Shown here: one piece after another, positions 1,555 to 20,355 of the stretch
Layout of the letters: the number at the start of each line of letters is the position of its first letter
How positions within the stretch are numbered: position 1 is the first letter of the stretch
Source of the DNA: Stappia indica
Lineage (GTDB): Bacteria > Pseudomonadota > Alphaproteobacteria > Rhizobiales > Stappiaceae
Assembly (NCBI RefSeq): GCF_009789575.1
Contig: NZ_CP046908.1
Span: 2,046,001-2,110,000, forward strand
DNA: 64,000 nt
Direction: 5' to 3'
Program-made: the position numbers and the translations under genes
The notes under the pieces: generated by a model
Told to the model about the DNA's origin: nothing
The model's input: only the letters and a program-made list of their open reading frames with translations
Databases searched by the model: none

Positions 1555-2184
1555 TCAGTCTTTTGCCGCGCCATCCGCAGCCCGCAACAGGGCAACCGCC
1601 CGCCGCATCCGCTGCACCGACGTCAGATGCGCCAGCAGCGCGTAGATGCCGAGCCCAACGGCAATCGTCGAAGCCGGCGCGATCCCGGCAAGCGACAGCC
1701 CCCCGGCAACCAGGAGCATCGCACTCAGGAAGATGATCCGCTCCAGCCGCTCGAAGAAATCCGGCCACGCCTCGTTGCGGATCGGGATCTCGATGGCCGT
1801 GCGCGCCTTGGCATAGCTGGTCAGCACCCCGCCGGAAAAGGCGAGCAGCGCCAACGCCCAAAGGTCGTTGACCGCGGCAAGGGCAGCCAGAACCGCCAGT
1901 TCCTGGTAGCGGTCCACCATGGCGTCGAAATAACCGCCCGACTTGGTGCACATCGACCGGCGCCGCGCCACCGCCCCGTCCAGCGCATCGAAGGCGAAAG
2001 CAAAGGCCAGCGTCAGTCCGAAGACGGCCGGATTCCCGTGCCACAGATAGAGCGCCGAGGTCAGGCAGATCAGGACGAGACCCGTCGCCGTGACCTGGTT
2101 CGGCGTCATCCCCATGCGCACCAGCGGGGTCGCCATGCTCTCCCAGAGCGGGTCGATATGGCGCTTGAACAAGCCGTCGATCAT
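1555..2184 (-). CDS. CDP-alcohol phosphatidyltransferase family protein (candidate inositol- or AEP-lipid synthase)
   Basis: A 209-residue polytopic membrane enzyme. It carries the full family signature D-x2-D-G-x2-A-R-x8-G-x3-D-x3-D (DALDGAVAR, then GGYFDAMVD), the metal-binding active site that moves a phosphoryl-alcohol group from a CDP-activated donor. About six hydrophobic segments follow the usual layout. The length is like bacterial and archaeal phosphatidylinositol-phosphate synthases. With an inositol-3-phosphate synthase, a CdsA-like and a PgpA-like protein nearby, phosphatidylinositol-phosphate synthesis is a reasonable guess. Transfer of CMP-AEP is the alternative. The acceptor cannot be read from sequence. 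The start of the kinase gene lies on the same strand upstream, 28 bases away. Confidence 0.85.
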   Translation of the reverse strand: MIDGLFKRHIDPLWESMATPLVRMGMTPNQVTATGLVLICLTSALYLWHGNPAVFGLTLAFAFAFDALDGAVARRRSMCTKSGGYFDAMVDRYQELAVLAALAAVNDLWALALLAFSGGVLTSYAKARTAIEIPIRNEAWPDFFERLERIIFLSAMLLVAGGLSLAGIAPASTIAVGLGIYALLAHLTSVQRMRRAVALLRAADGAAKD

Positions 2185-2212
2185 TGGCGCGGTTCCATTT
2201 TCGTCAGGATAA

Positions 2213-3808
2213 TCAGCGATATAGGGAAATCAGCTTCGGCCGGTGCCGGTCGAGCAGCGCGGCCCGCCGGTCGGCCCGCGCCATGCCTTCGCCCTCAGGG
2301 TCGTAAGTCAGCGCCTCGCCCTGGGTGAGGCTTGCGGCGGCCGCCTCGACGCTCGGATACCAGCCGAGACCGGCCGCGGCGATGGCGCCCGCCCCGCGCA
2401 CGCCGGCAAGGCGCGGCTGGCGCACCACGACCTGCAGCTTCAAGGCATCGGCCAGCATCTGCGCGAAATGCGGGTTGACCGCACCGCCGCCGACCAGCGG
2501 CAGCGGCAGGCCGGTCTTCAACCCCTTCTGCCGGGCCACCTTGCTGAGCGCCCAGCGCATGTTGAGCGCAACGCCTTCCAGCACCGAGCGCAGCAGCGCG
2601 TTGCGGTCGTGGCCGACGGAAAGCCCTGTAAAAACAGCGCGCAAGCGGTCGTCGTCAACCGGCACGCGCTCGCCGGAAAGCCAGGGCACGAAGAGCGGAT
2701 CGCTGTCGCGCAAGGGGCCGATGCCGGCATAGAGCGCCTCCAGCGAGGCGTCGTCGTCGCGCGCCGCGCCGCTCTCCCCGCCGCCGAACAGCCGCGCGGC
2801 CCAGGCGAAGGCGGACCCGGCGCTTTCCTGCGTCGCGATCAGCAGCGGCCGATAGTTCACGCTGGAGGATATCGTGGCGTAAGAGTGGAAAATATCGATC
2901 CTTCTGGAGGGGAAAAAGCCGCTGAGCCACGCGCTGGTGCCGGCATAGGCGTGCAGTTCTCCGTCGCCCGTCGCACCCGAACCGATGGCCGTCGCCACCA
3001 CGTCGCCCGCCCCGGCGATCACCGGCAGGCCGGCGGCAAGGCCGAGCTCTGTCCCCGCCTGCGGCAACAGGCCGCCGACGGTATAAGTCCCGTCGACGAT
3101 CTCCGGCAGCCGGTCGAGCGGGATGCCGAGCCGTCCGGCGAGATAGGGCGACCACCCTTCCCGGCCGGGCCGCGTATCCATCATCCAGGTCAGGTTGGCG
3201 CTGTCGGCCGTGGTGACGAAACGCCCCGTCGCCCTGTGCAAAAGCCAGTCCTTGACGTCGAGCAGCCGGGCCGCCGCTTCCCACACGTCCGGCTCGTGCT
3301 GCTTCAGCCAGAGCATCTTGGCCGGCGGGTCCATGCCGTTGTGCGAGGGCGCACCGTTGGCGATGCGCGTCCAGGTGTACAACTTGTCGAGCCGGTAGCC
3401 GGCGAGCGAGGGAAATCCCCCGTTCATCGCGCGCGACAGGGAGCCTGCCCGCTTGTCCAGCCAGACGATGGCCGGGCGCAAGGGGCGCCCCGAGCGCTCG
3501 ACCGGAATGACGCCGCACATCTGTGCGCAAAAGACGAGGGCCGAGGCGCGCGCGGATAAATCGGGGATCTGCGCGGCAAGATCGGCGATCCCTTCGCGCA
3601 GCGCCGACCACCAATCCTCGGGCTCCTGCTCGGCGCGGTCGGGCCCCGGCAGGCTCAAGGGATAGCGGCGCGTTGCCGTCGCAATGGCGGAAAGGCTGCG
3701 ATCGAGCGCCGCGATCTTGACGCCCGAGGTGCCGAAATCGGCGGAAATGATCAGGCCGCGCTCATCCGAGCCCGGACCTTTTTCCCCTGCTGCGCTGTCG
3801 CCGATCAC
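2213..3808 (-). CDS. FGGY-family carbohydrate kinase
   Basis: A 531-residue ATP-dependent sugar or polyol kinase of the FGGY (xylulokinase/glycerol kinase) family. The N-terminal phosphate-binding motif ADFGTSGVKIAALD is near residue 24, and the C-terminal domain contains AGAGDVVATAIGSG and a YAGTSAW stretch. The start is a GTG at 3808-3806 preceded by GAGGCAGGCAG. It is transcribed with the CDP-alcohol transferase downstream (28-bp gap). This suggests it phosphorylates a sugar or polyol used by the neighbouring glycolipid genes, but the substrate is not deducible. Confidence 0.85.
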   Translation of the reverse strand: MIGDSAAGEKGPGSDERGLIISADFGTSGVKIAALDRSLSAIATATRRYPLSLPGPDRAEQEPEDWWSALREGIADLAAQIPDLSARASALVFCAQMCGVIPVERSGRPLRPAIVWLDKRAGSLSRAMNGGFPSLAGYRLDKLYTWTRIANGAPSHNGMDPPAKMLWLKQHEPDVWEAAARLLDVKDWLLHRATGRFVTTADSANLTWMMDTRPGREGWSPYLAGRLGIPLDRLPEIVDGTYTVGGLLPQAGTELGLAAGLPVIAGAGDVVATAIGSGATGDGELHAYAGTSAWLSGFFPSRRIDIFHSYATISSSVNYRPLLIATQESAGSAFAWAARLFGGGESGAARDDDASLEALYAGIGPLRDSDPLFVPWLSGERVPVDDDRLRAVFTGLSVGHDRNALLRSVLEGVALNMRWALSKVARQKGLKTGLPLPLVGGGAVNPHFAQMLADALKLQVVVRQPRLAGVRGAGAIAAAGLGWYPSVEAAAASLTQGEALTYDPEGEGMARADRRAALLDRHRPKLISLYR

Positions 3809-3935
3809 CTGCCTGCCTCAAGCCTGATGCGGGGGAATTGCCCCTTCGCCGGCAACGGGTTTATAGAGTCCGGGACCAAATGAGAACCGGGAAACGCGCG
3901 CGGCGCGCCCCGCAACCGCGTGCCTCGAGGACCGG

Positions 3936-4925
3936 ATGATCGCAGAAACGGGACGGGGACAGGGCGCGGACAAGGGCGAGGCGGTCGACATCGTCTACAC
4001 CTGGGTCGACGACAGTTTCCCCGGTTATCGCGAGCTGCTGTCCGCCCATGCGGGCACCGCGCATGACAGCAATCCCAACCGCACCCGCGACAATCTCGAG
4101 CTTTTGCGCTACTCGCTGCGCTCGCTCGACGCACATGTCCCCTTCGCCCGAAAGATCTATCTGCTGAGCTGCCGGCCGCAGATCCCCGCCTGGCTGGACA
4201 GGGATCATCCCGACCTCGTGGTGGTACATCACGATGACATCATGGCGCCGGAGATCCTGCCGACCTTCAACTCCTTCGCCATCGTCAGCCATCTGGCGAA
4301 GCTGCCGGGCCTGTCGAGGACTTTCCTCTATTTTGAAGACGATATGCTCGCCTTTTCCCCGCTGAAGCTGGCCGATTTCCGCGGATCGGACGGGCGGGCG
4401 AAAGTCTTCCTGACGGGGAAAGCCTCGCCGGTGCTAGCAAGCCTCGACCCGCAGCGCGCAAGCCCCTGGAACCTGGCCATGGCCAATGCCAACCGGTTGC
4501 TGGAACAGCGTTTCGGCCCCGGACGGCGGCGCTATCTCGCCCATGGGCCGCAGCTGATCGACGCCGCGCTTTTCGAGGAAATGTGCGAGGATTTCCGCGA
4601 GGCGATCGAGGCGACGCGGGCAAGCCGCTTCCGCGCCGGCCACAACGTGCCGCCGGAATACCTCTACCCCCACTTTGCCGCGGAAAGCGGCCGCGCGGTT
4701 CCCGTCTCTTCCGCGGAGACCCGGCGCGCGATGGGCTATGCCTCGCTGGAGAATGTCCTGCCCTGGACCTTCGCGCAGCTGCGCTATCTGGAATGGGCGA
4801 AACCGCTGGCGGTGACGCTGAACGACAGTTTCGGCAAGGCACCCAACCCGCGGGTCGTCGCCCATATGCGCGCCGTGCTGGAGCGCTGGTTCCCCGTTCC
4901 CTCGCGCTTCGAGAAGCGGGGATAG
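3936..4925 (+). CDS. Stealth-family sugar-phosphate transferase
   Basis: A 329-residue protein matching the Stealth family (capsule-type hexose-1-phosphate transferases related to GlcNAc-1-phosphotransferase). Conserved region 1 is visible as DIVYTWVD at residues 18-25. Region 2 is RDNLELLRYSLRSL (51-64), followed by PTFNS (109-113) and FEDDM (133-137). Later conserved blocks include YLAHGPQLID and PPEYLYPHFA. The family builds phosphodiester-linked glycans. The gene diverges from the FGGY kinase and converges with a glycosyltransferase only 4 bp away. The role is probably in decorating a surface glycan or glycolipid. No membrane segment is apparent. Confidence 0.85.
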   Translation: MIAETGRGQGADKGEAVDIVYTWVDDSFPGYRELLSAHAGTAHDSNPNRTRDNLELLRYSLRSLDAHVPFARKIYLLSCRPQIPAWLDRDHPDLVVVHHDDIMAPEILPTFNSFAIVSHLAKLPGLSRTFLYFEDDMLAFSPLKLADFRGSDGRAKVFLTGKASPVLASLDPQRASPWNLAMANANRLLEQRFGPGRRRYLAHGPQLIDAALFEEMCEDFREAIEATRASRFRAGHNVPPEYLYPHFAAESGRAVPVSSAETRRAMGYASLENVLPWTFAQLRYLEWAKPLAVTLNDSFGKAPNPRVVAHMRAVLERWFPVPSRFEKRG

Positions 4926-4929
4926 GGGC

Positions 4930-6048
4930 TCACGGGAGGCCGAGCGCCTCGCGGTAAAGCCTTGCAAAGACGGGACCCGTGCCGCGAATGTCGGCATCTT
5001 GCGCGCGGGCATCGGCCCATGCGATGAGCCGCTCGCGGGCGGGCCTGTCCCCGGCAAGGGTGACGATGCGCAGCGCCAGCGCGCCGGCATCGCCCGGAGG
5101 CACCAGCAGCTCCGCGCCTTCCCCGCTCATGACGCTGGCATAGCCGGCATTCGCCGCCGCGACCGGCAGCGCGCCCGCCGCCATCGCCTCGACCAGCACC
5201 AGGCCGAAGCTTTCGCCGTAAGGGGCAGGCGCGGCGAAGATATCCGCACCCCCGACCAGGGCACGGGCGGTGATGTCGTCCGGCCGGTCGACGAGGCGGA
5301 TGCGCGCGCCATGAGGGAGGACAAGGGCCTGCTCGACGAGGGGCCGCAACTCGCCGCCGCCGGCAATGGTGAGGCGCGCATCCGGTAGCGCGGAGGCGAT
5401 CTGCGGCCATGCGGCCAGCAGCACATCGAGCCCCTTACGCGCCTCGAACCGCCCCAGAAAGACGATCTCAAGACTTTGATTCGGCTTCGTCTTTCGCGCC
5501 TGCCGCCAGGGCGCAAGGTCGACCGAGGGCGGCACCACCTCCACCCGCGCATCGCGTGCCGCCTCCCCCAGATGCGGCAGCGGCGTCGGCGAGGGAACGA
5601 CGACGATGCGCGAGTGCGAGAGGAAGTGCCGGGCGGTGATACGCAGCAGCCGCGCGGCAAGTCCGGAGGCATCCGCTGCCGGAAGCGTCGCATGGAAGGT
5701 CGTCACCGTCGGCAGGCGCAGCTCCCGCCAGACCTGCCAGGCGACGAAAGGCGTCCAGGGCGTGTGCAGGTGGACGAGATCGGCGCCCCACTCGCGCAGA
5801 TCGGCAACGAGCCGGCGCCGTTCGGCCCGCGGGGCATAGCTCACCTCGAAGCGGGTGCCAAACATCGACACCATCCGGGATCGACCGCAACACTCTGTTC
5901 CGTCAGCGCAAATTCCGTCGGGCGTTGGCGGCGCGACGATGCGCACCTCGTGCCCCTCGCCCCGCAGCCACTGCGAAAGGTCGCGCACATGCGACTGGAC
6001 GCCGCCGGGCCGGGCCATTGCATAGGGAAGGATCTGAACGATCCTCAT
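4930..6048 (-). CDS. Glycosyltransferase family 4 protein
   Basis: A 372-residue retaining GT-B glycosyltransferase. The N-terminal domain begins MRIVQILPYAMARPGGVQ, where GGVQ is the usual acceptor-side loop. The C-terminal donor domain has FLGRFEARKGLDVLL and GESFGLVLVEAMAAGALPV, the E-x7-E motif of GT4. The start at 6048 overlaps the upstream stop codon (ATGA), which shows translational coupling to the CDP-alcohol transferase. The frame is open 12 codons further upstream, but coupling and the family N terminus favour 6048. It probably glycosylates a lipid or phospholipid head group made by its partner. Confidence 0.88.
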   Translation of the reverse strand: MRIVQILPYAMARPGGVQSHVRDLSQWLRGEGHEVRIVAPPTPDGICADGTECCGRSRMVSMFGTRFEVSYAPRAERRRLVADLREWGADLVHLHTPWTPFVAWQVWRELRLPTVTTFHATLPAADASGLAARLLRITARHFLSHSRIVVVPSPTPLPHLGEAARDARVEVVPPSVDLAPWRQARKTKPNQSLEIVFLGRFEARKGLDVLLAAWPQIASALPDARLTIAGGGELRPLVEQALVLPHGARIRLVDRPDDITARALVGGADIFAAPAPYGESFGLVLVEAMAAGALPVAAANAGYASVMSGEGAELLVPPGDAGALALRIVTLAGDRPARERLIAWADARAQDADIRGTGPVFARLYREALGLP

Positions 6049-6782
6049 GCGCCCTCGCCCGGCCAGTTGCGGAAACTTGTCCACACCGCATCCCCGACAT
6101 CGAGCAGGGCATAGACCAGAACGAAGACCACCATCGCCGGCAGAGCGCCTGCGAGAGCTGCGATTCCAAGAAAAATCGGCAGGGCACCGCTCATCCCCGC
6201 CAGTGCGCGCTCGGCAAGGACGACAAATCCCCCCGGCTGCGCCTCCTGCGGGGGCGGCGCCGCGTCAGCTGCGGGAGAGGCAGGCCGCGCGTCCCGCGCC
6301 ACCCTCGCATAGAGGCGCAGCCACGCCGCAGCGAGCGCCAGAGGCGTCCAGAAAAAGCCGGTACCGTCCGCCGCGACCATCCGGTCGGCGAGGATGCCGA
6401 TGCTGGTGTAGAACAGGCCCCATTGCGCCATGTCGATGACGAAATCGAGCGCCGCGCCTTTCGAGGAACTGCGCCCCGTCGCCCGCGCCAGCCCGCCATC
6501 GGCGCAATCGAGGATCTGGAAGGCGACGGCGAGCAGCACCGTGCCAAGGACGGCAAACCCCGGCGGCAGCAGCAGGGCGGCGAGCGGCATCGCCAGCGCC
6601 ACCGGCAGGGCGGCCAGGGTCACCGCGGTCGGAGAAATCCCCGTCGGCACCAGCCGCGCCACCAGCCACAGGCTCGGCAAGCGGTAGAGCACGGCCACCG
6701 CCCAGTCGCTGGCGAGCTCGCTGCGGAACCTCTCGCGGCGGTACTCCCGCCAGAGGGTACGAAACGTCGGATCCGGCTGCAT
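6045..6782 (-). CDS. CDP-alcohol phosphatidyltransferase family protein, second copy
   Basis: A 245-residue membrane enzyme with the complete CDP-alcohol phosphotransferase signature (DCADGGLAR, 8 residues, then GAALDFVID). It has about six membrane segments after an N-terminal cytosolic stretch rich in basic and aromatic residues (TFRTLWREYRRERF). The ATG at 6782 is chosen; the open frame extends upstream but enters the divergent gene at 6898. The gene is coupled to the GT4 gene and diverges from a nucleotidyltransferase. A cytidylyltransferase beside a CDP-alcohol transferase is the arrangement seen for CDP-inositol and CDP-choline type routes. The actual donor (inositol, AEP or another alcohol) is inferred, not shown. 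Confidence 0.85.
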   Translation of the reverse strand: MQPDPTFRTLWREYRRERFRSELASDWAVAVLYRLPSLWLVARLVPTGISPTAVTLAALPVALAMPLAALLLPPGFAVLGTVLLAVAFQILDCADGGLARATGRSSSKGAALDFVIDMAQWGLFYTSIGILADRMVAADGTGFFWTPLALAAAWLRLYARVARDARPASPAADAAPPPQEAQPGGFVVLAERALAGMSGALPIFLGIAALAGALPAMVVFVLVYALLDVGDAVWTSFRNWPGEGA

Positions 6783-6897
6783 GATGTCGAGATAGTCCCT
6801 GCCTGCCTGCGCCCTCGGCCCTCCAGCCAGCCGGCTATTGCCCGCGGCCCGGCGCTCCCCTATTAGTGGACCGCCTTTATCACATTCCGGTCGATCC

Positions 6898-7653
6898 ATG
6901 CCCACTATCAAAGCAGTTTTCCTGGCCGCCGGTCGCGGCGTGCGAATGGGCGAGCGCGGCCTGCTGACGCCCAAGGGGCTGATCTCGCTCGGCCACCAGA
7001 GCTTCCTGGAAGACGCGGTCGACACGCTGGCCCTCCACGGCATCACGGATATCCGCGTGGTCACCGGCCATCTTGCCGAGCATTACCGCGAATTGGCGGC
7101 GAACCGGCGGCCCTCGCTCGACCTGCGCCACAACGGCACCTTCGCCACCAAGGGCTCGCTGCAGAGCCTGATGGTAGGGCTCGAGGGGCTGGACGGGCCC
7201 TGCCTTGTCCTCGAATCCGATCTGGTGTTCGAGCCGCGTGCGGTCGCTGCCGCCATCGGCGAGCCGGAGACGCCGGCCCTGCTCACCTCCGGCAAGACCG
7301 GGGCGGGCGACGAGGTGCATGTGTGGATCGACGACCGGGAGGGGCGGCCCTGTCTGCGCGACATGTCCAAGCTGGTCGACCGCTGGCACGACGCGCCTTA
7401 TGGCGAGTTGGTCGGCCTGACCTATCTGACCGGCGAAGCGGTGGCGCGGATGCAGGAGATCGGCCCGCAGCTGATCGCGCTCGACCCGATGGCCGACTAC
7501 GAGAGCGGCGTGGTCGAACTGGCGCAGAGCCAGCCCGTCATCGTGCCGCGGATCGACGATCTCGCCTGGGCCGAGGTCGACAACGAGGCAATGCTCGCCC
7601 GTGCCGCGGAGCTGGTTTATCCCCGCATCGAGGCGGCGCGCCGGCAGGGCTGA
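6898..7653 (+). CDS. MobA/LicC-like nucleotidyltransferase (NTP-transferase fold)
   Basis: A 251-residue single-domain nucleotidyltransferase. The NTP-binding loop LAAGRGVRMG occupies residues 9-18, with the conserved PK at 25-26 and the metal-binding VLESDLVFEP near residue 100. Such enzymes couple CTP or another NTP to a phosphorylated alcohol or sugar (phosphocholine, inositol-phosphate, hexose-1-phosphate). The start at 6898 is used because the conserved strand begins at once (MPTIKAVFLAAG). It faces away from the CDP-alcohol transferase, so it is a good candidate to make its CDP-activated donor. CTP:inositol-phosphate cytidylyltransferase is possible given the inositol synthase downstream. 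Substrate not determined. Confidence 0.85.
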   Translation: MPTIKAVFLAAGRGVRMGERGLLTPKGLISLGHQSFLEDAVDTLALHGITDIRVVTGHLAEHYRELAANRRPSLDLRHNGTFATKGSLQSLMVGLEGLDGPCLVLESDLVFEPRAVAAAIGEPETPALLTSGKTGAGDEVHVWIDDREGRPCLRDMSKLVDRWHDAPYGELVGLTYLTGEAVARMQEIGPQLIALDPMADYESGVVELAQSQPVIVPRIDDLAWAEVDNEAMLARAAELVYPRIEAARRQG

Positions 7654-7664
7654 TCCCCGCCCGA

Positions 7665-7720: not shown

Positions 7721-7734
7721 CCCGCGCAAACCGC

Positions 7735-8958
7735 TCAATGCGGCCGCGACAGCATCCGCTGCGCCACGACCACCCCGATGAGCGCCAGGAAGATCGACAG
7801 CCAGCTGCTGGTGAAGCCGGACAGGACGCCGATCTCCCCCATCGCCCAGGAGACCTTGGTCGCGACCAGCGCGAGATATCCCGCAAGCGCCAGGACGAGG
7901 ATACGCAGGGGCGCGACGACGCGCCCTGCCCCCGCCACCGGAGCAAGGCTCGCCCCCAGCAGCGCGTAGGCGCCGGGAAGGAAGAACGCCGCCCAGCGCC
8001 GCCACAGCGCCGCGTCGACATCCGGCCCCTTCAGCGGGTTGCTGTCGCGCGCCAGCACCTCGAGCGGGGCCTGCGGCAGGTAGAAGGCGGCGATGTCGTA
8101 ATAGGAGAGCGCCTCGGGCACGATATCGAGCCGCAGCTCCAGGCTCGGATACTGGCTGATGAGGTAAAGCGAGGTCTGGGCGTAGGCGGGCGGCGCACCG
8201 TCGCTGCGCGACTGGTCCTCGCCCGGCAGCCGCGCCCACAGGTCGACATCCGTGAAGCGCCAGAAGCCGGGCCGGTCGGCCGGCACGCCGTGGCGGGCGA
8301 CGATCACGTCGCGCAGGTCGCCGGCGACCACGCCGCGATAGAGCTCGACATCGGCGAGCTCGGGCTTGGCGCTGCGGATGACCCGCGCCTTCAGCACCGC
8401 GCCGTTGACGACGAACCAGCTCGGCTCGCCGAGATCGCCGTCGGCAAAGCGCCGGCCGTAGCCGCCGAGCTGCAGCTCGGCCTGGGCGAAGACCGCCGCC
8501 GGCCGCCACCAGCGCTCCAGCGAGAACTGCAGCGCGCCGGTGACCAGCGCGAAGACGCAGACCACCAAGAGCGTCTGGCGCGGCGACCAGCCGGCGGCGG
8601 CGATCACCGTGGTCTCGCGGTTGAACAGGCGCATCAGCTCGGCCGCGAAGACGCCGATGAAGCAGGCGACGGGAAACAGGCGCGTCGCGATGTCTACCGC
8701 GCGGTAGCCGAGATAGGCCGCGACCAGAAGGACGCGGGAGCGCCCCAGCTCGTCGGCCCGCGCCAGCACCCCGTCGAGGCTCTGCGCCAGGTCGATGGCG
8801 AAGGCAACGATCAGGAACATCGTCATGACCAGCGCCGCCGCCTTTAGGTGCGTTGCCAGGATCCGCCGGCCGATCAGGCCGAAGACGGGCGTGCGCCGCC
8901 GGGCGAGCGGCAGACCGCCGGCAGTGAAAAGCGGAAGGGTGGAGCCGGGCGCGCGCAT
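7735..8958 (-). CDS. LptG-like permease (YjgP/YjgQ family)
   Basis: A 407-residue inner-membrane protein of the LptF/LptG family. It has three N-terminal membrane helices (one ends in LMRLFNRETTVIAAAGWSP, the conserved coupling-helix region), a periplasmic beta-jellyroll from about 110 to 300, and three C-terminal helices. LptF and LptG with LptB extract lipopolysaccharide from the inner membrane. This copy follows the LptF-like gene by 3 bp and lies inside a lipid-biosynthesis cluster, not beside lptA/lptC or lptD. A paralogous transporter dedicated to the cluster's product is therefore possible, but it could also be the cell's only pair. Confidence 0.8.
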   Translation of the reverse strand: MRAPGSTLPLFTAGGLPLARRRTPVFGLIGRRILATHLKAAALVMTMFLIVAFAIDLAQSLDGVLARADELGRSRVLLVAAYLGYRAVDIATRLFPVACFIGVFAAELMRLFNRETTVIAAAGWSPRQTLLVVCVFALVTGALQFSLERWWRPAAVFAQAELQLGGYGRRFADGDLGEPSWFVVNGAVLKARVIRSAKPELADVELYRGVVAGDLRDVIVARHGVPADRPGFWRFTDVDLWARLPGEDQSRSDGAPPAYAQTSLYLISQYPSLELRLDIVPEALSYYDIAAFYLPQAPLEVLARDSNPLKGPDVDAALWRRWAAFFLPGAYALLGASLAPVAGAGRVVAPLRILVLALAGYLALVATKVSWAMGEIGVLSGFTSSWLSIFLALIGVVVAQRMLSRPH

Positions 8959-8961
8959 CGA

Positions 8962-12619: not shown

Positions 12620-12621
12620 GG

Positions 12622-13734
12622 TCAGGCCGCCTCGCCGTTGGCGAAGGCGAGCAGGCGGTCGTAGCCTTCCGCATCCTCGATCTGCAGAGGCGGATGCTTG
12701 AACAGGAACGCGCTCGCATCCTCGATCGGGCCGGCAAGACCGCGGTCGGCGGCGATCTTGGCGCAGCGGATGGCGATCAGCGCCATGGCCGCGGCATTGG
12801 GGGAATCCTCGACTTCCAGCCGCATCTCGACATGGGTGCGCACGCCGCCGAACAGCCGGCCCTCGAGGCGGACATAGGCGACCTTGCGATCGTTGAGCCA
12901 CGGCACGTAGTCCGAGGGGCCGATGCGGATCTCGCTGTCGGAGAGCCGCGCGTTCATCGCGGTCTGCACGGCCTCGGTCTTGGACTCCCGCTTCATCGCG
13001 AGGCGGTCCATGTCCATCATGTTGAGGAAGTCGGTGTTGCCGCCGACATTGAGCTGGTAGGTGCGGTCGACCTTGACGCCGCGCATGTCGGCGAGCCGGG
13101 CCAGCGCCCGGTGGGTGATCGTCGCGCCGAACTGCGCCTTGAAGTCGTCGCCGACGATCGGCACGCCGGCCTCGCGGAAGCGGGCGGCCCAGACCGGATC
13201 GGAGGCGATGAAGACCGGGATGCCGTTGACGAAGGCGCAGCCGGCTTCCAGCGCGCATTCGGCGTAGAACTGCGTCGCCTCGACCGAGCCGACGGGAAGG
13301 AAGTTGATCATCACGTCGGCCTTGGCCTCGCGCAGGGCGGCGACGATGCCGGCCTTGTCGAGCGCCGGCGCGCTGGAGACGACGAAGCTGCGGTCGGGCG
13401 CCTGGTTGCGCATGAAGGCGGAAACGCCGTCGAGATCCGGCCCGCGCAGCACCGGCGCGGTCATGCCGGAAAGATCCTTGTGGAAGATCTCGGTGCAGTT
13501 CGGCAGGGCGACCGCCGCCTCGCCCACCGTGCGTCCGACCTTGCGTGCATCGACCTCGAAGGCGAGCACGATGTCGACGTCTTCCGGCCTGTAGCCGCCG
13601 AGCACCGGGAACGGCACGCCCACCGCCTCGTCGCCCAGCGCCCGGCAATAGGCCACGCCCTGGATCAGCGAGCTTGCGCAATTGCCGGCACCGACAATCG
13701 CGGTACGGATCGTTTTCGCGGAAGAAGCGCTCAT
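12622..13734 (-). CDS. ino1: Inositol-3-phosphate synthase
   Basis: A 370-residue myo-inositol-1(3)-phosphate synthase of the short archaeal/actinobacterial type. It converts glucose-6-phosphate to inositol phosphate with NAD. The Rossmann loop GAGNCASSLIQG occupies residues 15-26. NVGGNTDFLNM and RESKTEAV, carrying the catalytic lysines, lie near 230-260. The enzyme is unusual in alphaproteobacteria, which mostly import and degrade inositol. Its place between sphingoid-base genes and next to CdsA/PgpA-like genes points to inositol-lipid or inositol-phosphate head-group synthesis. Confidence 0.93.
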   Translation of the reverse strand: MSASSAKTIRTAIVGAGNCASSLIQGVAYCRALGDEAVGVPFPVLGGYRPEDVDIVLAFEVDARKVGRTVGEAAVALPNCTEIFHKDLSGMTAPVLRGPDLDGVSAFMRNQAPDRSFVVSSAPALDKAGIVAALREAKADVMINFLPVGSVEATQFYAECALEAGCAFVNGIPVFIASDPVWAARFREAGVPIVGDDFKAQFGATITHRALARLADMRGVKVDRTYQLNVGGNTDFLNMMDMDRLAMKRESKTEAVQTAMNARLSDSEIRIGPSDYVPWLNDRKVAYVRLEGRLFGGVRTHVEMRLEVEDSPNAAAMALIAIRCAKIAADRGLAGPIEDASAFLFKHPPLQIEDAEGYDRLLAFANGEAA

Positions 13735-13740
13735 ACTGTC

Positions 13741-13855: not shown

Positions 13856-14533
13856 TTACTCGATCTCGATCCGTTCGACCAGCGGCTTGCCGGTCTCGGC
13901 GTCATGGCCCATCACCAGCACCTCGCGCACGCTCGGCATCAGCCCGCTCTCGTCCACATCCGCATAGGCAGAGGCCATGCGCATGGTCCGCCCGCCGACG
14001 GGAAGCAGAAGCTCGGCCCGGCCCGGCTCGACCAGGCGCAAGGTCGCCGGCCGCTCGGAATAGGACACGATGTGGATGCGGAAGACATCCGGATCATCGG
14101 TCGCGCGCGCCCTGACGCCGAAGGCGAAACTGTCCTCGATCATCTTCAGCGGCAGCTGCTCGCCGGTGGTGTTGAAGCGCCGCCAATAGGCGACGATCGG
14201 CTCGCGCGGGTCGAGCCTGCCGTCCTGCGTGAAGCGGGCGGCATAGACCACCGTGTTGGAATTGCTGGACCGCTGGAGATAGAAGACCTGGCCCGGGTCG
14301 CTGGGCACCGGAAAATCCGGGCGCACCACCGGCAGGCTCGCGACCTCGGTGACCACGGAGCCTCGCGGCTTCTGCGCGTTGCCCGGCGTGATGCGGGTTC
14401 CCTCGATGGCCATGGCCGCCGGCGCCAGGACGACCAGCGCCGCCAGCACGGCACAAAGGAGGCGAAGCGAACGCCCGGCATGGGTCGTCCGCGAGTGACC
14501 CGGCTTCATGCCGGCCCTTTCGTCAGCTGTCAT
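13856..14533 (-). CDS. DUF4833 protein, exported
   Basis: A 225-residue protein of unknown function. A basic N terminus and a hydrophobic stretch (about residues 24-42, ending AMA-IE) predict a signal peptide; ATG codons at 14533 or 14509 are both possible starts. The mature part has FYLQRSSNSNTVVYAARF and later PIVAYWRRFNTTGEQLPL, which I recognise as DUF4833. From memory, this family travels with inositol-phosphate synthase and CDP-alcohol transferase genes in Bacteroidetes. Its place here, between the inositol synthase and the sphingoid-base gene, fits that association. A periplasmic role in handling or transporting the inositol lipid is conjecture. Confidence 0.7.
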   Translation of the reverse strand: MTADERAGMKPGHSRTTHAGRSLRLLCAVLAALVVLAPAAMAIEGTRITPGNAQKPRGSVVTEVASLPVVRPDFPVPSDPGQVFYLQRSSNSNTVVYAARFTQDGRLDPREPIVAYWRRFNTTGEQLPLKMIEDSFAFGVRARATDDPDVFRIHIVSYSERPATLRLVEPGRAELLLPVGGRTMRMASAYADVDESGLMPSVREVLVMGHDAETGKPLVERIEIE

Positions 14534-14593
14534 GGCGATGCCAACTCCGCTCGGTGCGCGCCCCGTGCCCCGATTGTTCCGGCCCGGCCGGCG

Positions 14594-15835
14594 TCAGGCG
14601 CCGACGACGGCCTGTTGCAGCAGCTCCGCCTGCGCCGAGCCCTCGCCATGCGCCACCGCGGCGGCAATGGCGATGGCCTTGTCCATCTGCTCGTGCGTAT
14701 GCGCGGCCGACAGGAAGAAGCGGATGCGCGGCTGGTCCTTCGGCACGCCGATCTGGACGATGGGCGGGGCATAGACGCCCTGCTCCAGCAGCACCTGGGA
14801 GGCGATCATCGTCTGCATCGGGCTGGAGAACAGGATCGGCACCACGCCGCAACCGATGGCCGGGCCGGTGTTCAGCCCCATGGAGCGGGCGCGATCGCGG
14901 AAATAAAGCGAATTCTCGTGCAGGCGGGTGACGCGCTGCGGCTCGGCCTTCAGCTGCGTCAGCGCGCCATGGGCGCTGCCGAGCGTCGCCGGCGACAGGC
15001 CGACGCTGTAGACGAAGCCGGGCAGGGTGAAGCGCAGCCAGTCGATCACCCCCTGCTCGGCGCAGATGAAGCCGCCGGAGGAGACGAAGGACTTGGACAG
15101 GGTGCCGACCGTCAGCTCGATGCGCCGCGGATCGATGTCGAAATGCTCGCACAGGCCGCGCCCGGTGGCGCCGAGCACCCCGTAGGAATGCGCCTCGTCG
15201 ACGAGCAGCCAGGCGTCATGGGCTTCCTTCATCTCGACCAGCCGCGGCAGGTCGGGAATGTCGCCGTCCATGGAATAGAGGCCTTCGACGACGATGAGCA
15301 CGTTGCGATACTGGCCGCGCACCTCTTCCAGCTGGCGCTCCAGATCGTCGAGATCATTGTGGTTGAAGACCCGGTGATCGTAGCGGCCGTTCTTGGCGCC
15401 GACGAAGATCGAGTTGTGGGCCAGCTCGTCGATCAGAACGAGATCGCGCGGCCCCATCAGGAAGTTGATGAGCGAGACGTTGACCAGATAGCCGCTGACC
15501 AGCGACATCACGTCGCCGACGCCGAGGAAATCCGCCAGCTCGCGCTCGAAAGCGCGGTGGCCGGCACGCTCGCCGCCGACGAGGCGCGAGGCGCCGACGC
15601 CGGTGCCGAGCCGGTGCAGCTCGATGCTCGCCGCCTCGATCACGTCCGGGTGGTTGCTCAGGCCCAGATAGTCGTAATGGGCGAAGCTGACGAAGGGAAT
15701 GCCGTTGCGCTCGCAGGTTTCACGCTGCTGGTCGACGGGGAGAAAATACGGATTGTGCTGCTCGATGATCGCCTTGCCGGCCAGACGAAAGCGGCGCTCA
15801 GCGACAACGGAAAAGCTCGGCCGATCAGGCTTCAT
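14594..15835 (-). CDS. Serine palmitoyltransferase-like alpha-oxoamine synthase
   Basis: A 413-residue PLP enzyme of the alpha-oxoamine synthase family, which condenses an amino acid with an acyl thioester. Visible marks are the substrate-side YDYLGLSNH (54-62), DELAHNS (136-142), VDEAHSYGVLG (212-222) and the PLP-lysine motif GTLSKSF with K248. The family includes serine palmitoyltransferase, 8-amino-7-oxononanoate synthase and 2-amino-3-ketobutyrate ligase. A KDSR-like reductase downstream and the absence of biotin or threonine genes favour serine palmitoyltransferase. No dedicated acyl carrier protein or ceramide synthase is seen in the window. Confidence 0.82.
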   Translation of the reverse strand: MKPDRPSFSVVAERRFRLAGKAIIEQHNPYFLPVDQQRETCERNGIPFVSFAHYDYLGLSNHPDVIEAASIELHRLGTGVGASRLVGGERAGHRAFERELADFLGVGDVMSLVSGYLVNVSLINFLMGPRDLVLIDELAHNSIFVGAKNGRYDHRVFNHNDLDDLERQLEEVRGQYRNVLIVVEGLYSMDGDIPDLPRLVEMKEAHDAWLLVDEAHSYGVLGATGRGLCEHFDIDPRRIELTVGTLSKSFVSSGGFICAEQGVIDWLRFTLPGFVYSVGLSPATLGSAHGALTQLKAEPQRVTRLHENSLYFRDRARSMGLNTGPAIGCGVVPILFSSPMQTMIASQVLLEQGVYAPPIVQIGVPKDQPRIRFFLSAAHTHEQMDKAIAIAAAVAHGEGSAQAELLQQAVVGA

Positions 15836-16453: not shown

Positions 16454-17572
16454 TCAGCGGATCAATTTCTGTTTCAGGTCTGTCACAACTGCCTGCACCG
16501 ACGCGAGGAAGCGCTCGATCACCAGAGAATCGATGGCGCCGATGGTGCCGACCCGGAAGGTGCCGAGCGCCTTCATCTTGCCCGCGTAGATGGCAAAGCC
16601 GCGCGCCTCCAGCGCGTCGTAGAAGGTGGAAAACTCGTACCAAGCCTCGCGCGGCTCCAGGAAGGAGACGATCACCGGCGCCTGCAGCGCGGGGTCGAGC
16701 GCCGGGACGAAGCCGAGCCGGGCCATGCCGGCGATCAGCGTGTCGCGGTTCGCCGTGTAGCGATTGAGCCGGGCGGCCGGGCCGCCCTCCTCGGCAAGCT
16801 CCTGCAAGGCCTCGTGCAGGGCCGCGACCACATGGGTCGGCGGCGTGAAGCGCCACTGGCCGTCGCCGGCAAGCGCCCGCGCCTGGTCCTCCAGATCGAG
16901 CGCCAGCGAGGGCGAGACGCCGGCCCGGGCGGCAAGCTCATCCGACCGGCAGACCACGAAGGCAAGGCCGGGAACGCCCTGCAGGCACTTGTTGGAACTG
17001 GCCGCCAGCGCCGAAATGCCCCAGCCGGAGACATCGACGGCGAGCGCGCCGAAGCTGCTCATCGCATCGACCAGCAGCCGCCGTCCGGCGGCCCTCGCCA
17101 CGGCGGCGATCTCCTCAAGCGGATTGACGAGGCCCGAGGTCGTCTCGCAATGGACGATGGCGACAGCGGCAATGCCGGGGTCCGCGGCGAGCCTGCCAGC
17201 AAGCGCCGCAGGGTCGTGCGCCTGCGTCTCCGCGACCTCGACCACCTCGAACGGGCGGCCGAGCCGGCGGCAGATTTCCGCCATGCGCCGGCCATAGGCG
17301 CCGTTGACCAGCAGCAGCAGGCGCTCGTCCGGGCGGAGCAGGCTGCCGAGCATCGCCTCGACCGCGAAAGTGCCGCTGCCCTGCACGGGCACGCAGACAT
17401 GATCCTCAGGCCTGCCGCCGGCAAGATCGCGGACGCGCTCAAGAACCTCGCCGGCAAGGCGGGTGAAGGCGGGATCGCGCGAGCCCCAGTCGCGCAGCAT
17501 CACGGCCTTGACCCGGTCGCTGGTGGTCAGCGGGCCGGGCGTCAGCAGGACGGGACCAGCAGATGCGCTCAT
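16454..17572 (-). CDS. phnW: 2-aminoethylphosphonate aminotransferase
   Basis: A 372-residue class-V PLP aminotransferase of the PhnW type. It begins with the diagnostic LLTPGPLTTSDRVK (residues 9-22) and DWGSRD (28-33). PLP contacts include VDAMSSFG (D169) and the Schiff-base lysine in SSNKCLQGVPG (K195). PhnW interconverts phosphonoacetaldehyde and AEP. In breakdown loci it pairs with PhnX. Here it follows PEP mutase and phosphonopyruvate decarboxylase, so it should run towards AEP. Its ATG overlaps the decarboxylase stop codon (ATGA), giving tight coupling. Confidence 0.92.
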   Translation of the reverse strand: MSASAGPVLLTPGPLTTSDRVKAVMLRDWGSRDPAFTRLAGEVLERVRDLAGGRPEDHVCVPVQGSGTFAVEAMLGSLLRPDERLLLLVNGAYGRRMAEICRRLGRPFEVVEVAETQAHDPAALAGRLAADPGIAAVAIVHCETTSGLVNPLEEIAAVARAAGRRLLVDAMSSFGALAVDVSGWGISALAASSNKCLQGVPGLAFVVCRSDELAARAGVSPSLALDLEDQARALAGDGQWRFTPPTHVVAALHEALQELAEEGGPAARLNRYTANRDTLIAGMARLGFVPALDPALQAPVIVSFLEPREAWYEFSTFYDALEARGFAIYAGKMKALGTFRVGTIGAIDSLVIERFLASVQAVVTDLKQKLIR

Positions 17573-18711
17573 GCGGCACCGGCGAGATGGGCGCGGAAGC
17601 GGCGGGCGACCTCGCGCGGCGCAATGGTCGGACGGCCGAGGCCGGCGACCTCTTCGGCGGCGACCTTCACATGCACGAAGCGCGGCCCCGGCACGGCGAG
17701 CGCCGCATCGAGCGCAGCTCCCGCCTCCGCAAGACCGCTGGCGCGGGCGGCGAACCGGTAGCCGCAGGCGGCCGCGACCGAGGCAAAGTCCACATGCGCG
17801 GAGACCGTCGCCTGGCCGCCGGTCGACAGGTGCCGGCCGTTGTCGAGCAGGACATGGGTGAAGCGCACCGGCGCCTCGGCGCCGATGGTCGCCATGTTGC
17901 CGAGCTTCATCAATGCCGCGCCGTCGCCGTCGAGCACCGCGATCTCGCGCTCGCAGTTGAGCGCAGCGCCAAGGCCGATGGCGCTGGCCCCGCCCATGGA
18001 GCCGACGCAGTAGAGATGACCGGCATGGTCCTGCAGGGTGAAGAGCTCGCGCCCGGTATGGCCGGTGGTGGCGACAAGGCCGGCGCTTTCGGGCAGCTTG
18101 TCGCGCAGCAGCGCCAGCACGTCCATGCGGCGCGGCAGGCTCGCCCCGCCGCCGAACTCGGCCGGTGCAACGCGCGGTGCCGGCTCGGCCCGCGCCTCAT
18201 CCAGCGGACGCGGCGCGATCGCGCCCTTGGGCTGCACCAAGCCGACCGGCTGGCCGGTCGCCCGCATATGGGCGACGGCCCGCGCCAGCACCGGCTCGAT
18301 GTCGGCGGCTGCAAGCGGGAACGGCTCGCCGTGAACGCCGGCGAGCGCCAGCAGCTGCGAGGTGATCTGGCCCATCAGCTCGTGCTGCGGCTCGTCCTTC
18401 ACCCCCGGCTCGCCGCGCCAGGTGGCGATCACCAGCGTCGGAATGCCGAAGGGATGGTTGAGCGAGGTCAGCGGATTGACCGCGTTGCCGAGCCCGGAAT
18501 TCTGGAACATCACCGCGGTCTCGCGGCCCGCGCACCAGGCGCCGGCGGCAATCGCCACCGCCTCGCCCTCGCTGGTCGCCCCGACATAGCGCGCCGTCCG
18601 GTCGGAGATCACCGCGTTCATCAAGGGCGTCAGGAAGCTGCAGGGCACGCCGGTGAAGAAGTCGATGCCCTGGCGCTTGGCCGCGGAGAGAAAGTCGCCA
18701 GCCTCGATCAT
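17569..18711 (-). CDS. ppd: Phosphonopyruvate decarboxylase
   Basis: A 380-residue thiamine-diphosphate enzyme that decarboxylates phosphonopyruvate to phosphonoacetaldehyde, the step that pulls PEP mutase forward. The N-terminal domain has FFTGVPCSFLTPLMN and ATSEGEAVAIAAGAW (the activating glutamate near residue 48). QNSGLGNAVNPLTSLN (70-85) is characteristic. The TPP-binding motif GDG...GNM is at 262-273. The length is normal for the family. It is preceded by the PEP mutase (24-bp gap) and overlaps the aminotransferase, so the three form one operon. Confidence 0.94.
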   Translation of the reverse strand: MIEAGDFLSAAKRQGIDFFTGVPCSFLTPLMNAVISDRTARYVGATSEGEAVAIAAGAWCAGRETAVMFQNSGLGNAVNPLTSLNHPFGIPTLVIATWRGEPGVKDEPQHELMGQITSQLLALAGVHGEPFPLAAADIEPVLARAVAHMRATGQPVGLVQPKGAIAPRPLDEARAEPAPRVAPAEFGGGASLPRRMDVLALLRDKLPESAGLVATTGHTGRELFTLQDHAGHLYCVGSMGGASAIGLGAALNCEREIAVLDGDGAALMKLGNMATIGAEAPVRFTHVLLDNGRHLSTGGQATVSAHVDFASVAAACGYRFAARASGLAEAGAALDAALAVPGPRFVHVKVAAEEVAGLGRPTIAPREVARRFRAHLAGAA

Positions 18712-18735
18712 CGCCCGTGCCTCCAGGCTCTCCGG

Positions 18736-20355
18736 TCAGACCGCATCGCGCGCCTGCGCCAGGTCCATGAGGTCGTTGACGTTGCGCCAGAAGCCGGTGA
18801 CATAGACGACGCCGATGCGCTCGCCGGCCGCCGCCATGCGGGTCAGCACCGCGCCGAGATCGGCGCTGGCAAGGCTGCCCTCGGCCGCCATCTCGTCCAG
18901 CGTGCGGCGCAGGCGGGCAGCGCCCGCGGCACTCGCCCGCATCAGGCCGACCCACTCGCCGTCGCCGCCCTCGCCAACGAAGCCCTTGAGCAGCGGCGTC
19001 TCGGCGTCCGGGTCGAGATCGTCGGAGAAGGGAAGCGTGCAGGCGACGGCGTCGCGGCCCGCGCGCCCCGAAAGGCGCGGATCGACCGCAAGCACGATGT
19101 CCTCCTCCCGGTCCTCCAGCATCGCCAGGAAGAACGGGCGGTAGAGAATGTCGCCATAGGAGACGATGGTGTCGCCCTCGCCGAGCGCCAGCGACAGGGA
19201 CTGCGCCTCGCCGCTGGTCTGGTACTCCGCGTTCTCGACCAGCGAGATGCCCGGCGCCTCGACCGCATCGGCCTTGTAGCCGACGACGACGCGGATATCG
19301 GCAACGCCGTGGCGCGTGAGCGCCTCGACCTGGCGGCCGAGCAGCGAGGTGCCGCGCACGGGCAGCATGCATTTCGGCCGGTCCAGCGTCAGGTCGCCGA
19401 GCTCCTCGCCGCGGGTGGCGGCGAGAACGATGGCGCGGCGCGGCGCGGTGGCGGCAAGATAGCGCTTCTCCGCCTCTTCCAGTTCCTGCGAGCCGGCGAG
19501 CGAGAACACGTCGCCGAGCGGCGCCACGTCGCTTTCCACCTCCAGGAGGGTCTGGTGCTCGCGCAGGACCGCGCAGGTGTCGCGCATGGCGCGGATCGAG
19601 GCGCGCAGGTTGTGGTTCGCCCAGATGATCATCGAAGCGCCGGCCTCGCGCAGCTTCTCGGTCGGCGTGCGGTAATACTTGGTCGGGATCAGGATCACCG
19701 GCGTCCGGTCGCCGAACTCCCGGCAGAACTCGATGATCTCGTCGGCCGTGCTCTTCTTGGAGTGGATGACGATGGCATCCGCCCCCGCATCCGCATAGGC
19801 ATGGGCGCGCTTGAGCGCCTCCTCCAATCCGCGCCCGGCGATCAGCGCCTCGACCCGCGCGACGATCTGGAAATCCGGATGGCTCTGGGTGTCCTTGCCG
19901 GCCTTGATCTTGCCGCAGAACTCGTCGATGTCGGCGAGCGGCTGGTTCTCGCCCAGGAACGAGTTGGTCTTGGGGAAGATCTTGTCCTCGATGCACACGC
20001 CGGCGATGCCGCGATCGCACAGCTTGGCGACGAAGCGGCGGAAATTGTTGAAGTTGCCGTAGCCGGTGTCGCCGTCGACGAGGATCGGCAGGCTGGAGGC
20101 GTCCGACATGTATTCCAGCATGTCGAGGACCTGGGTCCAGGACAGCTCGTTGTTGTCGCGCACGCCGAGCGCCGCCGACATGGACAGGCCCGAGGCCCAG
20201 ATGCCCTCGAAGCCGGCTTCCTCGACGATCTTGGCGGACAGGCCGCTATGCGCCTCCATCAGGAAGGCGAGATCCGGACGCTGCAACAGCTCGCGCAACC
20301 GGGTGAACCTGGAGACCGGCGCCGATGCGCGGTCGAGTGCGACGTGCTTTTGCAA
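18736..20355 (-). CDS. pepM: Phosphoenolpyruvate mutase fused to a nucleotidyltransferase
   Basis: A 539-residue two-domain enzyme. Residues about 15-295 are PEP mutase, which makes the C-P bond of phosphonopyruvate; the diagnostic motif EDKIFPKTNS (EDK-x5-NS) is at 123-132 and DGDTGYG at 94-100. Residues about 305-535 form an NTP-transferase domain with LAATRGEELG (311-320) and DRPKCMLPV (325-333). By analogy with PntC-type enzymes, the second domain may make CMP-AEP from the end product. Its loop reads LAATRG where LAAGxG is normal. The start is TTG at 20355-20353 with AAAGGAG before it. First gene of the phosphonate operon. Confidence 0.93.
   Translation of the reverse strand: MQKHVALDRASAPVSRFTRLRELLQRPDLAFLMEAHSGLSAKIVEEAGFEGIWASGLSMSAALGVRDNNELSWTQVLDMLEYMSDASSLPILVDGDTGYGNFNNFRRFVAKLCDRGIAGVCIEDKIFPKTNSFLGENQPLADIDEFCGKIKAGKDTQSHPDFQIVARVEALIAGRGLEEALKRAHAYADAGADAIVIHSKKSTADEIIEFCREFGDRTPVILIPTKYYRTPTEKLREAGASMIIWANHNLRASIRAMRDTCAVLREHQTLLEVESDVAPLGDVFSLAGSQELEEAEKRYLAATAPRRAIVLAATRGEELGDLTLDRPKCMLPVRGTSLLGRQVEALTRHGVADIRVVVGYKADAVEAPGISLVENAEYQTSGEAQSLSLALGEGDTIVSYGDILYRPFFLAMLEDREEDIVLAVDPRLSGRAGRDAVACTLPFSDDLDPDAETPLLKGFVGEGGDGEWVGLMRASAAGAARLRRTLDEMAAEGSLASADLGAVLTRMAAAGERIGVVYVTGFWRNVNDLMDLAQARDAV

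Follow-up and report, generated by a model that had tools for sequence, protein, structure and literature searches.

The stretch of Stappia indica DNA analysed here (64,000 nucleotides of contig NZ_CP046908.1, hereafter the window) lies in a genome consisting of a single contig of 5.12 Mb, and contains a cluster of 17 genes spanning window positions 1555-20355. We propose, giving it an even chance, that the genes of this cluster together serve a single surface lipid, its synthesis as well as its export. This lipid would be a glycosyl-inositol-phospho-sphingolipid, bearing 2-aminoethylphosphonate (AEP) in Stappia and in some of its relatives. What can be read directly from the sequences is to which family each enzyme belongs, that CAP2, one of two cytidine-diphosphate (CDP)-alcohol phosphotransferases, has an inositol-phosphate pocket, and that the genes are co-conserved; we infer the sphingoid anchor, the kinase, the N-acylation, the site of the AEP, the order of the steps and the export. 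A preliminary description of this DNA had proposed a surface sphingolipid or glycolipid bearing inositol phosphate and/or AEP, which fits the sequence evidence, except that AEP turns out to be only optional, pepM being found in 20 of the 50 genomes searched.

The gene classes named in that description were found at 1555-20355 by Pfam and NCBIfam scans, including CAP1, which is marginal by score and has a complete signature. The coordinates needed only slight adjustment, two starts having been corrected: the KDSR-like gene is at 11780-12619 and the CdsA-like gene at 10981-11769. PgpA (10494-10973), the free nucleotidyltransferase and the Stealth gene are all on the plus strand. The FGGY kinase and the DUF4833 protein are additional to the genes described before. 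The genes are as follows (PIP, phosphatidylinositol phosphate; SPT, serine palmitoyltransferase; SDR, short-chain dehydrogenase/reductase; CTP, cytidine triphosphate):

1555-2184, minus strand: CAP2, PIP-synthase-type CDP-alcohol phosphotransferase (6h53, 43.3 bits over 17-195)
2213-3808, minus strand: FGGY-family kinase (PF00370, 134.1 bits; PF02782, 84.6 bits)
3936-4925, plus strand: Stealth-family protein (PF11380, 99.9 bits; PF17102, 36.9 bits)
4930-6048, minus strand: PimA-like GT4 glycosyltransferase (PimA structures 4n9w, 151.5 bits, and 2gej, 149.8 bits)
6045-6782, minus strand: CAP1, CDP-alcohol phosphotransferase, candidate AEP transferase (Pfam, 21.8 bits, cut-off 22)
6898-7653, plus strand: PntC-like CTP:AEP cytidylyltransferase, a free NTP_transf_3 protein (6pd1, 119.6 bits)
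7735-8958, minus strand: second LptG-like permease (PF03739, 80.6 bits)
8962-10209, minus strand: second LptF-like permease (PF03739, 59.7 bits)
10494-10973, plus strand: PgpA-family lipid phosphatase (PF04608, 130.3 bits)
10981-11769, minus strand: CdsA-like CDP-lipid synthase, CTP_transf_1 (PF01148, 107.4 bits)
11780-12619, minus strand: 3-ketosphinganine reductase-like SDR, KDSR (nine-sequence profile against the PDB, TSC10 top)
12622-13734, minus strand: myo-inositol-1(3)-phosphate synthase Ino1, actinobacterial type (PF01658, 115.8 bits; 1gr0)
13856-14533, minus strand: DUF4833 protein with an N-terminal hydrophobic segment (PF16117, 105.4 bits)
14594-15835, minus strand: SPT-like alpha-oxoamine synthase, SPT/BioF family (six-sequence profile against the PDB, SPT top)
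16454-17572, minus strand: AEP transaminase PhnW/AepZ (NF010006, 463.1 bits, and TIGR03301, 435.1 bits, above the cut-offs)
17569-18711, minus strand: phosphonopyruvate decarboxylase Ppd (TIGR03297, 394.7 bits, above the cut-off)
18736-20355, minus strand: PepM fused to NTP_transf_3 (TIGR02320, 388.7 bits, cut-off 319.55)

The minus-strand genes form the blocks pepM-ppd-phnW, SPT-DUF4833-ino1-KDSR-CdsA, LptF-LptG, CAP1-GT4 and FGGY-CAP2, the start of GT4 being set at the ATG that overlaps the CAP1 stop.

The cluster is real, conserved and modular and is more than a chance neighbourhood, since its gene order is kept in five genomes of the family and its core recurs in other alphaproteobacteria. 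A search for SPT in 199 genomes of the order gave matches in 51 at E <= 1e-60, and 20 SPT regions were fetched. One is the genome's own paralogue (L033); the 19 others come from further genomes and comprise 17 best matches and 2 second copies. All 17 genes keep their order and orientation in five genomes of the family, two of the same genus and three of another genus, with an identity of 41-79 % in the latter three. A sixth region (L042) keeps ino1-KDSR-CdsA-PgpA-LptF-LptG and CAP2-FGGY-SPT, with GT4 farther on; no pepM, ppd, phnW, free nucleotidyltransferase, CAP1 or Stealth gene was seen in this stretch, and its DUF4833 gene lies just beyond it, where it was seen on the same contig as L127. 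The remaining 14 SPT regions have SPT plus at most one or two weak matches. The ino1 search, performed on 385 genomes of the class, gave matches in 30 (own genome included), and the 20 regions fetched showed the core in two cases (L053 and L066); the other 18, some of them short contigs, have ino1 with at most scattered weaker matches.

GTDB contigs were also scanned with a KDSR alignment, and the best 80 of 340 confirmed relatives were used for locus counts, genes being scored as missing also where a contig end or the limit of the 10 kb flank truncates the locus. The ino1 gene is found in 55 of these 80 loci, together with CdsA and DUF4833 (54 loci each), LptF and LptG (53 each), SPT (51), GT4 and FGGY (47 each), CAP2 (44), the nucleotidyltransferase (34), CAP1 (29), Stealth (27) and, in the fetched stretch, pepM (16). 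The preliminary description had made its reading depend on the modules being conserved together in relatives, and this is what the 51 of 55 ino1 and KDSR loci with an SPT-like gene bear out. The core recurs in Rhodobacterales, many of them Shimia, and in other alphaproteobacteria. On the KDSR tree the label of linkage to ino1 needs 3 changes versus 21.5 when shuffled, a clustering that near-copies favour. The 25 loci without ino1 belong to cyanobacteria (16), an Opitutaceae metagenome-assembled genome (MAG), Ancylobacter (four) and other alphaproteobacteria (four), and therefore KDSR, sometimes with SPT, also exists apart from the inositol genes. The cyanobacterial loci are L132, L135, L136, L138, L139, L141-L149, L151 and L152, and five of them have an SPT-like gene nearby, with 41-44 % identity. 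The four Ancylobacter loci (L117, L128, L131 and L134) have KDSR-like and SPT-like genes, the inositol genes not being in the fetched stretch.

Among the genes for the inositol part of the product, ino1 encodes a protein whose top PDB match is 1gr0, an inositol-3-phosphate synthase that we take to be the M. tuberculosis enzyme (363.5 bits). Its sequence identifies CAP2 as a PIP-synthase-type enzyme with an inositol-phosphate pocket: the pocket described for mycobacterial PIP synthase is made of R94, S132, K135, R137, R152, R155 and R195 (PMC6506517, PMC4634129). All these residues, counted on the 6h53 alignment, are kept in CAP2, in columns that are invariant across eight aligned CAP2 sequences. 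In a larger set of 44, which includes sequences cut at locus ends, 41 have the CDP-alcohol signature and 39 have SYxKAR. With the NCBIfam models, CAP2 scores 118.6 bits for archaetidylinositol phosphate synthase versus 75.1 bits for bacterial PIP synthase, both below the cut-offs (180 and 170). Three CTP_transf_1 genes are present in the genome, and the CdsA-like copy of the cluster is the weakest match. The match of GT4 to PimA covers residues 9-378, the two PimA structures being presumably mycobacterial or close to it, and the next non-PimA match reaches 64.4 bits; its top NCBIfam model is MshA (59.5 bits, cut-off 462.5). We consequently predict a PimA-type glycosyltransferase. Proteins of the Stealth family are sugar-phosphate transferases. 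Together, the PimA-like GT4 and the Stealth protein therefore suggest a glycosylated inositol lipid rather than the plain inositol phosphorylceramide that the preliminary description had given as an example.

Concerning the sphingoid base, the six-sequence profile of the SPT-like protein matches an SPT best in the PDB (279.5 bits), followed by 2-amino-3-ketobutyrate CoA ligase (KBL, 260.4 bits), other SPTs (<=242), an entry of the 8-amino-7-oxononanoate synthase (AONS)/KBL type (240.5) and AONS (<=227.7). The GT[LF][SG]K motif is present in all 48 SPT-like locus sequences, and the NCBIfam SPT models give 284.5, 276.6 and 192.7 bits, all below their cut-offs of 500, 640 and 670. The nine-sequence profile of KDSR has TSC10 as its top PDB match (152.7 bits, the next being at 128.3), and none of the 25 NCBIfam matches listed for this SDR is above its cut-off. 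The motifs Y[AST]xxK, PPDTxTPQ-type and KPAxTxxI were counted in 53, 45 and 25 of 54 sequences, respectively. The SDR thus appears to be 3-ketosphinganine reductase-like, TSC10 being its best characterised match; its gene is 95 % identical to the closest named relatives, in Stappia sp. WLB 29 and S. indica SBBC 49.

An acyl carrier protein (ACP) and a ceramide synthase had been expected elsewhere in the genome. A satellite locus at about 696 kb does contain a candidate ACP. No N-acyltransferase, nor a proven lipid kinase, was identified. This satellite (about 695-699 kb, L162:7302-10688), some 1.35 Mb from the cluster, comprises a Frag1 gene, the ACP (PF00550), a ketosynthase (KS), a MaoC-like gene and a gene for a 134-aa protein without Pfam match. 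One Frag1 gene was found in the genome, this one at 695 kb, and the KS is 44 % identical to that of Siculibacillus. In the Siculibacillus MAG, an ACP and a FabF-like ketosynthase adjoin SPT, and SPT-FGGY-CAP2 lie on one strand; in G337, the genes of an ACP, a KS, Frag1 and an ATP-binding cassette (ABC) protein run into CAP2 and FGGY. The satellite is the likeliest home of the ACP expected outside the cluster. Elsewhere in the genome, a second SPT-like gene (4863236-4864375; L033:9362-18459) is located directly 3' of a type I polyketide synthase. SgaAB of Pseudomonas fluorescens, a sphinganine system, has a like arrangement (PMC12134224), and the second gene, considered as a partner of the cluster, was set aside as a separate system since it follows the polyketide synthase in the same way. 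A ketosynthase was also seen near the SPT-like gene in five further fetched regions (L047, L048, L049, L051 and L052).

In the phosphonate module, the EDKx5NS motif is present in all 17 locus PepM sequences, that of the window included. The NTP_transf_3 domain fused to PepM (18736-19545) is divergent, with weak PDB matches (top 30.1 bits), and reads AATRG or AASRG in the six sequences inspected versus AAGxG in the free enzyme. The latter matches 6pd1, a Treponema PntC, over its whole length (residues 5-245, E 1.6e-33, 119.6 bits), and the next PDB match is LicC (28.8 bits); 6PD1 is Tde1415 (Tde-PntC), an AEP cytidylyltransferase (PMC6697681). Synthesis of CDP-inositol or di-myo-inositol-phosphate by this enzyme is disfavoured, PntC being by far the top PDB match and no inositol cytidylyltransferase being found among the 11 PDB matches. 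Because an NCBIfam model of inositol-phosphate cytidylyltransferases matches it weakly (34.6 bits, against a cut-off of 580), CDP-inositol is kept within one of the alternatives weighed below. As for CAP1, the Pfam score is marginal in the window (21.8 bits) and reaches 37.5 bits in a relative (L066). The signature DxxDGxxARx8GxxxDxxxD is complete in the window CAP1 and in 29 of 30 CAP1 matches (the L127 match being a CAP2 gene), while 29 of 30, window included, have neither the SYxKAR block nor an Arg following the last Asp; the sole exception is taken to be L127, that is, the CAP2 gene matched again. Lacking that Arg and SYxKAR, CAP1 is therefore not a PIP synthase of the CAP2 type.

The pepM search covered 50 of the 55 ino1 and KDSR genomes and found the gene above its cut-off in 20, so that the core product would be the inositol lipid; the AEP module is dispensable, an optional decoration of this core product. 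Over all 50 genomes, 18 have pepM and the PntC-like gene, 14 the PntC-like gene only, 2 pepM only and 16 neither. In the complete loci (n=43, defined as those where both GT4 and FGGY were seen), pepM accompanies the PntC-like gene in 17 of 30 cases and is found in 0 of 13 without it (Fisher p 0.0004, a statistic that ignores relatedness).

For the export, a genome search gave four LptF/LptG matches. The pair at 650-652 kb, with 213 and 212 bits, is taken as the housekeeping pair, and that of the cluster, with 77 and 56 bits, as a second and divergent one.

Taken together, these data suggest the following pathway. Ino1 would supply inositol phosphate, and the SPT-like enzyme and KDSR would form a sphingoid base, probably fed by the ACP and KS of the satellite. 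A phosphorylation step and the CdsA-like enzyme would then give a CDP-lipid, which CAP2 would couple with inositol phosphate before PgpA strips the extra phosphate. The PimA-like GT4 would put a sugar on the inositol, and the Stealth protein may put on a sugar phosphate. In parallel, PepM, Ppd and PhnW would produce AEP, the PntC-like enzyme would convert it to its cytidine monophosphate conjugate (CMP-AEP) and CAP1 would move AEP onto the lipid or its glycan. The second LptF/G-like pair would be dedicated to this product and would carry it in the direction of the outer membrane. Of the 17 locus proteins only one, FGGY, belongs to a kinase family, and its role as sphingoid kinase is a guess. 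A more detailed version, which we put forward tentatively and hold to be improbable as a whole, is an alphaproteobacterial counterpart of the eukaryotic glycosyl inositol phosphorylceramides: FGGY would phosphorylate the sphingoid base, the CdsA-like enzyme would give a CDP-sphingolipid, CAP2 would add inositol phosphate without an AUR1-type transfer from phosphatidylinositol (PI), PimA-like glycosylation and addition of AEP would follow, and a second export line of the lipopolysaccharide type with a Frag1-family protein would lead to the surface. If true, bacterial inositol sphingolipids could be reached via a CDP-activated sphingolipid, and the molecule would share its architecture with those inositol glycolipids of Trypanosoma cruzi that have a ceramide anchor and bear AEP.

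Several observations weigh against a single AEP-bearing inositol sphingolipid. On the sphingoid side, four of the 55 ino1 and KDSR loci, some being short contigs, show no SPT, and SPT with KDSR occurs without ino1 in Ancylobacter and some cyanobacteria. The single SPT-like sequence scores best with bioF in NCBIfam (319.9 bits, under the cut-off of 426.45), and the lead of SPT over KBL in the profile is just 19 bits; the SPT assignment leans partly on the KDSR partner because KBL is close behind and bioF is the top NCBIfam model. At E 1e-3 the ACP of the satellite does not detectably match that of Siculibacillus, so the satellite ACP is tied to the cluster only by its position. The locus proteins include no recognised ceramide synthase, sphingoid kinase or AUR1-like enzyme, the AUR1-like family having been looked for in Pfam scans of the 17 locus proteins and not in the rest of the genome. 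PgpA is found in 17 of the 55 loci and is the only copy of the genome, and for these reasons it may be a housekeeping enzyme, possibly also serving phosphatidylglycerol synthesis. On the AEP side, 13 of the 30 complete loci with the PntC-like gene have no pepM genome-wide, which weakens the strict AEP reading, and recognisable CAP1 is missing in five of these 30. In two pepM-positive genomes (L092 and L109) the PntC-like gene was not seen, the locus being incomplete in the stretch fetched for them. When relatedness is corrected for on the tree, which includes 42 of the 43 complete loci, only 2-3 independent pairs on supported branches are left for an association of pepM with the PntC-like gene, CAP1 or Stealth, too few to test.

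These observations bear on three alternatives. The cluster could serve two products, CAP1 putting AEP on another acceptor (diacylglycerol, ceramide or a polysaccharide) and the inositol glycolipid being separate, a possibility that we regard as rather unlikely. It agrees with the absence of the AEP module from over half of the core genomes searched, with the persistence of CAP2 and LptG in 13 and of SPT in 12 of the 13 complete loci without a PntC-like gene, and with the tailoring of cell surfaces by AEP in most bacterial phosphonate pathways, as reported (PMC6697681). However, the PntC-like gene, CAP1 and Stealth sit between LptG, GT4 and FGGY, within the core and not at its edge, and in the window the CAP1 stop overlaps the GT4 start. 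We give a slightly lower probability to the PntC-like enzyme and CAP1 handling another phospho-alcohol (such as phosphoethanolamine, phosphocholine or inositol phosphate), the AEP of Stappia going elsewhere. This unlikely case draws on the 13 complete loci with a PntC-like enzyme in pepM-less genomes, on the alignment of PntC-like enzymes, where no column separates pepM-positive (19 rows) from pepM-negative sequences (14 rows) at the thresholds used, on the weak NCBIfam match to the inositol-phosphate model and on the proposal by Heaver et al. that in other Bacteroidetes clusters an NTP transferase makes CDP-inositol (PMC9246714). Against it stand the scores of PntC and LicC (119.6 vs 28.8 bits), the lack of inositol-phosphate enzymes among the 11 PDB matches and the lack of pepM in all 13 complete loci without a PntC-like enzyme. 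Moreover, AEP import could serve the pepM-less relatives: AepX is reported for Stappia stellulata, and orthologues for Shimia marina and Thalassobius aestuarii DSM 15283 (PMC8316502), which makes imported AEP a possible source there.

The anchor itself could be diacylglycerol, as in the phosphatidylinositol mannosides (PIM), with SPT and KDSR devoted to an unrelated ceramide or long-chain amine. CDP-diacylglycerol is the substrate of bacterial PIP synthases (PMC4634129), CdsA-like and PgpA-like enzymes are in the cluster, and the Bacteroides pathway passes through the diacylglycerol forms of PIP and PI, PIP-DAG and PI-DAG (PMC9246714). We nevertheless judge this anchor distinctly unlikely: 51 of the 55 loci with ino1 and KDSR have kept SPT as well, the divergent CdsA-like enzyme of the cluster would be redundant because two others exist, and CAP2 prefers the model of archaetidylinositol phosphate synthase, whose donor is not diacylglycerol-based, over that of PIP synthase, both being under the cut-off.

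The proposed glycosyl-inositol-phospho-sphingolipid cluster resembles several known systems. As in BT_1522-BT_1526 of Bacteroides thetaiotaomicron, where myo-inositol-phosphate (MIP) synthase, PIP synthase and a PgpA-family PIP phosphatase are found together in a sphingolipid producer, the inositol genes are grouped, but the AUR1-like BT_1522 has no counterpart seen among the 17 locus proteins; SPT and KDSR are inside the Stappia cluster, whereas the Bacteroides SPT (BT_0870) is outside its cluster, and the PimA-like GT4, CdsA-like, FGGY, LptF/G-like and AEP genes are additional (PMC9246714). That paper nowhere uses the word phosphonate. The Caulobacter region CC_1152-CC_1168 is likewise an alphaproteobacterial SPT region with a second LptF/LptG (LptF2/G2), proposed for sphingolipid transport; its products are ceramide phosphoglycerate lipids, with no inositol or phosphonate in the accessible text, and its ceramide genes are aasR, cerR, acpR, spt and cerS (PMC11324152). 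The likeness to this phosphosphingolipid region is one of gene content. The Pnt phosphonate tailoring pathways share PepM fused to PF12804, a class V aminotransferase and the PntC cytidylyltransferase (PMC6697681), and differ in that the candidate terminal transferase is here a CDP-alcohol phosphotransferase inside an inositol-sphingolipid cluster; the main text of PMC6697681 has no words starting with inositol, sphingo or CDP-alcohol. From the mycobacterial PI/PIM pathway, whose inositol-3-phosphate synthase, PIP synthase and PimA are the best PDB matches of Ino1, CAP2 and GT4, the cluster is distinguished by its Gram-negative host, its sphingoid genes, its Lpt-like export pair and its AEP module. 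In the glycosylphosphatidylinositol (GPI) lipids of T. cruzi, some of which have ceramide in their anchor, AEP is borne by a glycosylated inositol lipid (PMC8591177); this organism is eukaryotic and uses other enzymes, and the likeness is limited to the predicted product. Bacteriovorax stolpii is known to have a sphingolipid whose head is a phosphonate (PMC6148460). No description of the gene combination of the cluster was found in the literature searched, which covered few subscription journals; as far as searched, the parts are of known kinds, and the combination and the predicted product are new.

Inositol lipids are relatively rare in bacteria, and the characterised inositol-sphingolipid cluster comes from gut Bacteroidetes (PMC9246714). 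Here, inositol, sphingoid, glycosyl and phosphonate chemistry and a second LptF/G-like pair are united in marine Alphaproteobacteria. If the proposal is true, a new class of surface lipid, probably resembling surface lipids known from eukaryotes, is predicted in common marine bacteria, with candidate enzymes at hand for most steps; bound AEP in the sea might derive from it, and a sphingolipid-specific Lpt line could be tested in a second lineage besides Caulobacter.

The DUF4833 protein was considered as an LptC-like periplasmic bridge. Its AlphaFold model has a beta-rich fold (pLDDT 85.9, pTM 0.74), and this role was dropped since none of the 1310 PDB matches listed at E <= 10 reaches E <= 0.001; the name DUF4833 was not found in the literature searched, again with few subscription journals covered. 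Accessory genes were surveyed in the 105 loci in which genes could be called. A membrane protein family of the Frag1/DRAM/Sfk1 type occurs in 28 loci (27 distinct), adjoining CAP2, or FGGY where CAP2 was uncalled. With the Pfam Frag1 model, the L127 member is under the cut-off and the L066 gene, which lies beside an ABC gene and CAP2, is above it. Frag1 is related to PGAP2. PGAP2/CWH43 is listed as a lyso-GPI acyltransferase (PMC8591177). An ABC-exporter-like gene is present in 22 loci, Pfam having been run on two. Finally, a gene of the fatty-acid desaturase family was observed between GT4 and Stealth in eight relatives (L085-L090, L100 and L113; Pfam run on two), and its N-terminus, to our eye, recalls sphingolipid desaturases.

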